From an uncultured Clostridia bacterium (GTDB lineage Bacteria; Bacillota; Clostridia; TANB77; CAG-508): a DNA stretch of 38,632 nt. The notes beneath the pieces were generated by a model. The model was not told where the DNA came from, did not search any database, and saw only the letters and a list, made by a program, of their open reading frames with translations. The stretch covers positions 1 to 38,632 of the forward strand of contig CAMIVO010000013.1 of NCBI GenBank assembly GCA_946401865.1, given 5' to 3'. Each line of letters opens with the position of its first letter. Within the stretch, counting starts at the first letter, position 1. A program made the translations under genes and the position numbers. Shown here in pieces: positions 2,279 through 37,745 of this stretch.

Positions 2279-2523
2279 GTTACAATTCACGGTTTACTAT
2301 AAATTAACCCTGCCTAAAGTTTATATATTTATTTTTACGCGTAAATCCCTTCTTTCTAACAAAAATGTAATCAAATATGGAATTTTTTAACGGAAGTCAA
2401 GCTTCCTAAAAATTCTCATATTTGAAAACATTTTGTAAGAAAGTGGTCCCCGCACAAGTTTACTTTAAAAATAAATATATAAACTTGGTGCGGGCTTTTA
2501 GCAATTTGACCGTGAATTGTAAC
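2279..2523. repeat. 245-bp fold-back element, copy A
   Basis: Non-coding element with 15-bp terminal inverted repeats (GTTACAATTCACGGT and its complement). Most of its length is also self-complementary: the left blocks AAGTTTATATATTTATT and CAAATATG reappear as complements in mirror order on the right, down to a small apex hairpin GGAAG-TCAAG-CTTCC near 2390-2405. The whole unit can therefore fold into one interrupted hairpin. A near-identical copy lies at 37500-37745 and a one-arm fragment at 27576-27635. It resembles a MITE or fold-back transposon end pair; no ORF is present. Confidence 0.85.
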
Positions 2524-2649: not shown

Positions 2650-3075
2650 ATGCTAATGGGTGAATTTGAACATACTCTAGACACTAAGGGCAGAATTTCA
2701 ATGCCAGCAAAATTAAGAAAAGACATGGGAGAAACATTTATTTTAACTAAAGGTTTAGATGGATGTTTATTTGCTTTTTCTAGTGAAGAATGGTTAAATT
2801 TCGAATCAAAACTAAAATCACTTCCACTATCAGATAAAAATGCAAGAAATTTTGTAAGATTTTTCTTAGCAGGTGCGACAGAATGTGAAATAGATAAACA
2901 AGGAAGATTTTTAATTCCACAAAATCTAAGACAAGCTGGTTCTTTAGAAAAAGAAGCAGTAATCATAGGTGTAGGAACAAGACTTGAAATTTGGGATAAA
3001 TCAACATGGCAAGCTAAAGATGAAGAAATTTCAGCAGATGAAATTGCAGAAAATATGACAATGCTTGGTATATAA
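2650..3075 (+). CDS. mraZ: Transcriptional regulator MraZ
   Basis: A 141-residue protein, the usual MraZ size. It has two AbrB-like SpoVT swapped-hairpin halves: [20 protein letters not shown] at the start and [17 protein letters not shown] in the second half, each with the conserved D.KGR/DKQGR DNA-contact motif. MraZ forms a ring and represses the division/cell wall (dcw) cluster. The start ATG at 2650 follows TGGGGTGA; a second ATG two codons later is possible. It is followed by a 405-base gap before rsmH, longer than the near-contiguous arrangement usual in dcw clusters. Confidence 0.95.
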
Positions 3076-27575: not shown

Positions 27576-27635
27576 AAAAAAATAAATATATAAACTTTAG
27601 GCTGGGCTAAATTATAGTAAATCGTGAATTGTAAC
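27576..27635 (-). repeat. One-arm fragment of the 245-bp fold-back element
   Basis: On the minus strand it matches the left arm of copy A (2279-2340): GTTACAATTCACG at the end, then TTACTATAA, and AAAGTTTATATATTTATT, with several point differences. Only about 60 bases remain. Confidence 0.82.
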
Positions 27636-27652
27636 ATTGTGTCATGTGAAAG

Positions 27653-27682
27653 GTTGTCAAAAAGGTCCGTCCCCATTGACAC
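27653..27682 (-). repeat. REP-like repeat before hydA
   Basis: GTTGTCAAAAAGGTCCGTCC, then CCATTGACAC: a single unit in the orientation opposite to the polA copy. About 97 bases before the hydA start. Confidence 0.88.
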
Positions 27683-27778
27683 GATACAATACATCAACTG
27701 ATGAAATAGAAAGTTACAGAATAGAAGGTTATTTATTAGAAAAATAAAGCCCAAATGAGGCAAAAAAGGAGAAATTTT

Positions 27779-37499: not shown

Positions 37500-37745
37500 G
37501 TTACAATTCATGGTTTACTATAAATGAACCCTGCCTAAAGTTTATATATTTATTTTTATACGTAAATTCCTTCTTTCTACAAAAATGAAATCAAATATGG
37601 AATTTTTTTTAACGGAAGTTAAGCTTCCTAAAAATTCTCATATTTGAAAACATTTTGCAAGAAAGTGGTCTCCGCACAAGTTTATTTTAAAAATAAATAC
37701 ATAAACTTGGTGCGGGCTTTTAGCAATTTAACCATGAATTGTAAC
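37500..37745. repeat. 246-bp fold-back element, copy B
   Basis: Near-identical to 2279-2523 and in the same orientation, with terminal inverted repeats GTTACAATTCATGGTT and complement. The terminal change C-to-T at one end (CACGG to CATGG) is matched by G-to-A at the other (CCGTG to CCATG), so pairing is kept. No ORF. Confidence 0.9.

Follow-up and report, generated by a model that had tools for sequence, protein, structure and literature searches.

A long palindromic repeat occurs twice in 38,632 nucleotides of DNA from an uncultured Clostridia bacterium (hereafter the window, i.e. the whole stretch that was analysed) and raises the question of what kind of element it is, how it spreads and why it lies where it does. 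The preliminary description of this DNA reported two copies in the same orientation together with a one-arm remnant. All three are present, the second copy being 94% identical to the first and one base pair longer:

2279–2523, + strand: full-length element, copy 1 (245 bp), delimited by sequence, genome matches and fold
37500–37745, + strand: full-length element, copy 2 (246 bp), delimited by genome matches
27576–27635, + strand: one-arm remnant corresponding to the right arm, delimited by sequence match

In the source genome (G000; 1.74 Mb, 90 contigs), BLAST returns 81 matches to the 245-bp repeat, a count in which this palindrome is scored on both strands. The end word TGAATTGTAAC has 65 exact sites, against 1 for a reversed control word, and 66 distinct element ends were collected, so that the count of copies proposed earlier reveals a family dispersed genome-wide. 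Many copies of the repeat are cut by contig ends, and the repeat has therefore broken the assembly.

The termini of the family read GTTACAATTCAC...GTGAATTGTAAC and form terminal inverted repeats of 12–14 bp with the consensus GTTACAATTCAC(A/G)G. At copy 1 of the window, the ends and their flanks are as follows:

2279–2292, + strand: left terminal inverted repeat, GTTACAATTCACGG, common to the family
2510–2523, + strand: right terminal inverted repeat, CCGTGAATTGTAAC, common to the family
2271–2278: left copy of an imperfect 8-bp target duplication, TTTTAATG, 7/9 with a one-base offset
2525–2532: right copy of this duplication, TTGTAATG, preceded by an extra C at 2524

Flanking target duplications, which had been suggested as a check, are indeed found. 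They measure 8 bp and are exact in eight full-length copies of the same genome (L002 (CTCTTTTT), L003, L005, L008, L009, L010, L013 and L015), match at 7/8 positions in L014, L020 and L021, and are absent from the flanks of copy 2 in the window. Elements with these ends are short (49–467 bp) and carry no transposase gene. Because inverted ends of 12–14 bp, 8-bp duplications, zero coding capacity and many copies occur together, the 245-bp repeat is a miniature inverted-repeat transposable element (MITE), a non-autonomous DNA transposon. It had been argued that a repeat encoding no protein must either be moved in trans or act as a structured RNA or DNA. The common ends, the exact duplications, the lack of coding capacity and the many scattered copies bear out movement in trans; selection on pairing is not supported.

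The repeat is certainly self-complementary from end to end, as first described. Copy 1 folds far beyond chance both as RNA (-86.9 kcal/mol, z -11.3) and as DNA (-56.8 kcal/mol, z -11.1), and none of 200 shuffled sequences folded equally well. Selection on pairing was assessed in ten unswapped full-length copies, with 90 consensus pairs. Pairs are lost in 30 of the changed cells and retained in 19, the latter comprising 13 G-U pairs, 2 one-sided Watson–Crick changes and 4 two-sided, that is compensated, changes; these four lie at 2 positions, and three of them represent a single change common to related copies. The replacement of CACGG/CCGTG by CATGG/CCATG, from which selection on pairing had been proposed, is real in copy 2 but atypical, since it is one of only two compensated pair positions. 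The preliminary description had itself named differences that destroy pairing as often as they keep it as the observation that would count against selection, and this is what the copies display. A structured RNA family with compensatory pairing was rejected on the same counts, and Rfam contains no family matching the 245-bp element.

Two types of end can be distinguished, A (...GGCAGGGCTAATTTATAATAAACCGTGAATTGTAAC) and B (...GGCGCGGGCTTTTAGCAATTTGACCGTGAATTGTAAC), and in L014, L015 and L028 they are found on the opposite arm or as hybrids. The break in the swapped copies is at a 21-bp perfect internal inverted repeat, located in copy 1 at:

2317–2337, + strand: left arm of the 21-bp repeat and site of the end-type swap (positions 39–59 of the query match 188–208 on the other strand)
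2466–2486, - strand: right arm of the 21-bp repeat, a self-match of the element

Inversion or conversion via this internal repeat accounts for the swapped and hybrid ends; short-read chimeras are a less likely source.

Only short weak matches to the interior of the 245-bp element were obtained in 54 related genomes. The same ends, flanked by 8-bp duplications, nonetheless delimit elements in this genus, in further genera of its family and in additional families of the order. These elements were read out from stretches around end-word sites in draft assemblies, mostly MAGs, and amount to 44 distinct insertions with 7/8 or 8/8 duplications, a selected number, since the element finder demanded such duplications, and one in which some insertions in different species may be orthologous. 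These insertions fall into 22 interior clusters. Nearly all elements of at least 95 bp are strong fold-backs, while those of 49–90 bp are barely more than two ends and lack an internal fold. As these short elements are mobile, movement does not depend on the long fold, and since they keep both ends and duplications, the mobile unit is the pair of ends. No element above 500 bp with a target duplication was found in the genomes searched, none of the elements with these ends encodes a transposase, and apparent 4-kb and 8-kb end pairs in G156 were resolved as short elements. Similarly, viral contigs with end words contained no element pair above 480 bp with target duplications, and a literature search for the end sequence returned nothing relevant. 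Among the IMG/VR contigs (L251–L325), 71 viral stretches contain GTTACAATTCACAGCT, compared with 4 that contain GTTACAATTCACAGTT; the former word probably belongs to a conserved phage gene without relation to the elements.

Diverged and composite forms were also observed in the source genome. A fold-back of 199 bp (L036 1061–1259; G000:C1:11560-11758) has the same ends, GTTACAATTCACAACTT...TTGTGAATTGTAGC, around an unrelated interior; a strong TTGACA/TATAAT promoter lies about 75 bp downstream of it. The repeat core GAAATTAGCGTTGATTGGCTGAAACCGAGC is present at three sites, namely 2150–2267 of the window, L017 1665–1753 and L046 at about 1584 (- strand). In L017 this core, with TAAATTGTAAC at its end, is joined to an arm of the 245-bp element, and elements can therefore be chimeric.

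Sigma-A promoters (TTGACA, 15–19 bp, TATAAT) were sought in the outward flanks of the elements using an ad hoc matrix and a threshold of our choosing, and all promoters discussed here are predictions. The source genome has 24 strong outward promoters within 100 bp of an element end, and in 15 of them the -35 box lies 36–41 bp from that end, compared with 0–2 when the origin is slid by 60–600 bp. The same was seen in congeners (13/21) and in a further set drawn mostly from other genera and families (24/43), slid controls again giving 0–2. In the pooled set, which comprises 252 ends of which only 67 (about a quarter) have any strong predicted outward promoter, 41 of these 67 promoters lie at 36–41 bp (expected 6%, p ~5e-33) and 35 at 38, 39 or 40 bp, with a mode of 39. 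Promoters pointing inward, into the element, show no spacing peak, and no promoter is predicted at the usual spacing on the right side of window copy 2 or at many other ends. Either end type, A or B, can face the promoter, and the flanking DNA is AT-rich, at 83% over the 30 bp next to the element. Judged from these predicted promoters, insertion appears to be aimed at a site about 38 bp upstream of sigma-A promoters. A spacing of 36–41 bp common to many unrelated MITEs is absent from the papers searched and hence apparently new; a survey of promoter-targeting transposons counted promoters only within 30 bp of the insertion (PMC3942029).

Copy 1 of the window illustrates this arrangement at mraZ, where an older element of the same superfamily adjoins it:

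2650–3075, + strand: mraZ (Pfam PF02381, E 6e-41), the gene downstream of the putatively targeted promoter
2562–2567, + strand: predicted -35 box of the mraZ promoter, TTGCAA, 38 bp from the end of copy 1
2585–2590, + strand: predicted -10 box of the mraZ promoter, TAAAAT
2150–2267, + strand: older element, 118 bp, starting with GTTACTATTTACAG, right end decayed
2142–2149 and 2268–2275: exact duplications, GAATTTTA, flanking the older element

Before copy 1 was inserted, 41 bp separated the older element from the mraZ -35 box, and this promoter has thus received two successive insertions, at 41 and then at 38 bp. Among 79 relatives in which the mraZ promoter was aligned, an element end is located exactly 38 bp from the -35 box in L210, L179 and L241. 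The elements of L210 and L241 belong to an interior cluster other than that of the window element, and inheritance among these three species is possible. In the nearest relatives (L163, L164 and L220), other sequence, palindromic in L164, stands between the same flanks upstream of mraZ and ends near the same position in CTAGTAAC or CTTGTAAC; these are possibly decayed elements of the same kind. Further upstream in the window, two small adjacent ORFs (974–1511), the second of which matches the ParE toxin (PF05016, E 3.5e-17), probably constitute a toxin–antitoxin pair.

We regard the 245-bp repeat, with a probability of roughly 0.8, as a MITE moved by a trans-acting transposase that makes staggered cuts 8 bp apart and lands 36–41 bp upstream of the -35 box of sigma-A promoters. 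Such an enzyme would recognise only the 12–14 bp ends, would generate the 8-bp duplications by its staggered cuts at the target, and would place the element end at this distance from an outward-pointing promoter. The tether would most simply be promoter-bound RNA polymerase, for example through its alpha C-terminal domains on AT-rich upstream DNA, or alternatively the structure of this AT-rich DNA might serve. An insertion site of this type would leave genes and core promoters intact, and a 1.7-Mb genome might for this reason be able to carry dozens of copies. For movement the long palindromic interiors are dispensable, and recombination at internal inverted repeats allows their arms to swap places or flip. 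Going further, we tentatively propose, at somewhat less than even odds, a transposase not yet described, whose gene may reside in the host genome or in a low-copy element. It would read host promoters from some two helical turns more upstream than TnGBS/ISLre2 does and would mobilise any DNA with 12–14 bp GTTACAATTCAC ends, so that independent amplification of unrelated palindromes would have taken place in many species of one order of gut Clostridia. By analogy with TnGBS, the enzyme would most plausibly be a Mutator-like DDE transposase that senses promoters through a module resembling the one in TnGBS/ISLre2/ISKra4, though from a lineage other than those searched for here.

Other explanations have to be weighed against a MITE aimed at promoters. 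Elements might insert at random in AT-rich DNA and persist only at harmless sites just upstream of promoters, as the AT-rich flanks and the largely intergenic location of the insertions examined would allow. This survivorship should leave a broad range of harmless distances past a minimum and is disfavoured by the tight spike at 38–40 bp, which makes it improbable. Even less credence can be given to a conserved structured regulator of RNA or DNA (leader, attenuator or insulator) kept for its hairpin. The very strong fold, the promoter-adjacent location, the two compensated pair positions and the recurrence of elements at one mraZ position in several species are what such a regulator would lead one to expect, but the excess of pair-breaking differences, the silence of Rfam, the short kin without a fold, the 22 interior clusters and the duplications, which show transposition, make it very improbable.

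The mover could also be a known promoter-targeting family, TnGBS/ISLre2 or ISKra4, whose gene is missing from the drafts. Duplications of 8–9 bp and sigma-A targeting are typical of these families (PMC3942029), and ISLre2 genes (PF06782) occur in 12 of 59 congeners, none being found in G000. Elements of the ISLre2 type, about 1.8 kb long, were seen in congeners at L138 1368–3153 (G057) and in L149 (G030:C91). In L138, the one fully delimited copy, the duplication is 8 bp long (ATATAGCA) and the distance to a TTGACA -35 box is 15 bp, as is known for this family. Local ISLre2 elements have ends unlike the present ones, and with this difference and the 15-bp spacing ISLre2 was rejected as the mover. 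The ISKra4 (p-MULT 4) model NF033572 found nothing above cut-off in 24 genomes, giving weak cross-matches to ISLre2 genes. We consider a known-family mover unlikely, if less so than survivorship. Scarcely credible, by comparison, is the notion of REP-like palindromes moved by a RAYT (Y1 single-strand) transposase, suggested by the palindromic, intergenic nature of the elements and by a RAYT-like neighbour of one of them. That gene (L082 434–1202, - strand, G075) lies between inverted copies of a GGGACAATTGGGGACGGTTCTTAATTG repeat, and a 244-bp element of the present kind is inserted upstream of it; this lone gene is outside the element and its duplications. To our knowledge, the REP/RAYT system produces no target duplication, as Y1 single-strand transposition makes none, and the 8-bp duplications contradict membership. 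A small inverted repeat (GTGTCA...TGACAC) with GGTCCGTCCCC, resembling the repeat beside the RAYT-like gene of L082, directly follows the one-arm remnant in the window (27636–27690).

The transposase gene with the same termini that the preliminary description proposed to look for did not turn up, and neither this gene nor a parental autonomous element was found in the genomes searched, which are drafts from which multi-copy elements may be missing. IS66 (PF03050) and IS256 (p-MULT 1, PF00872) were each above cut-off in 2 of 20 genomes, G000 not being among them, and no such ends were nearby; MULE models merely gave cross-matches to ISLre2 and IS256 genes.

Promoter targeting is known for few bacterial transposons. 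A second spacing (38–40 versus 15–17 bp), seen in dozens of insertions, would offer an independent system for studying how a transposase reads polymerase-bound promoters, and the elements may serve as a model for the tolerance of many mobile copies in small genomes. The spacing rule provides a simple way to find such elements and, in reverse, could mark promoters in uncultured genomes. In addition, because elements with common ends have unrelated interiors, the minimal mobile unit (two ends, 49 bp) lends itself to a direct test.

MITEs as a class and promoter targeting by TnGBS, ISLre2 and ISKra4 at 15–17 bp were already known. TnGBS/ISLre2 elements, which have Mutator-like DDE transposases (p-MULT 3), insert 15–17 bp upstream of the -35 box of sigma-A promoters, and contact of the transposase with the RNA polymerase initiation complex has been proposed for TnGBS (PMC3942029). 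Together with ISKra4, they share with the present elements 8–9 bp duplications (8 bp here), a constant distance to the sigma-A promoter downstream, and symmetrical ends that insert in either orientation; they differ in spacing (36–41 bp here), in their inverted repeats of 18–39 bp and other sequence, and in carrying a transposase gene (PMC3942029). Bacterial MITEs such as Correia, RUP, ERIC and Chunjie are likewise short, non-coding, multicopy fold-back elements with terminal inverted repeats and duplications, and inversion has been reported for Correia as well (PMC10969869). Unlike them, the present elements come without a parental insertion sequence in the genomes searched, have ends that span unrelated interiors across genera, and appear aimed at promoters at a fixed spacing. 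REP/RAYT sequences are also palindromic, intergenic and moved in trans, whereas the present elements are longer and possess 12–14 bp terminal repeats and 8-bp duplications.
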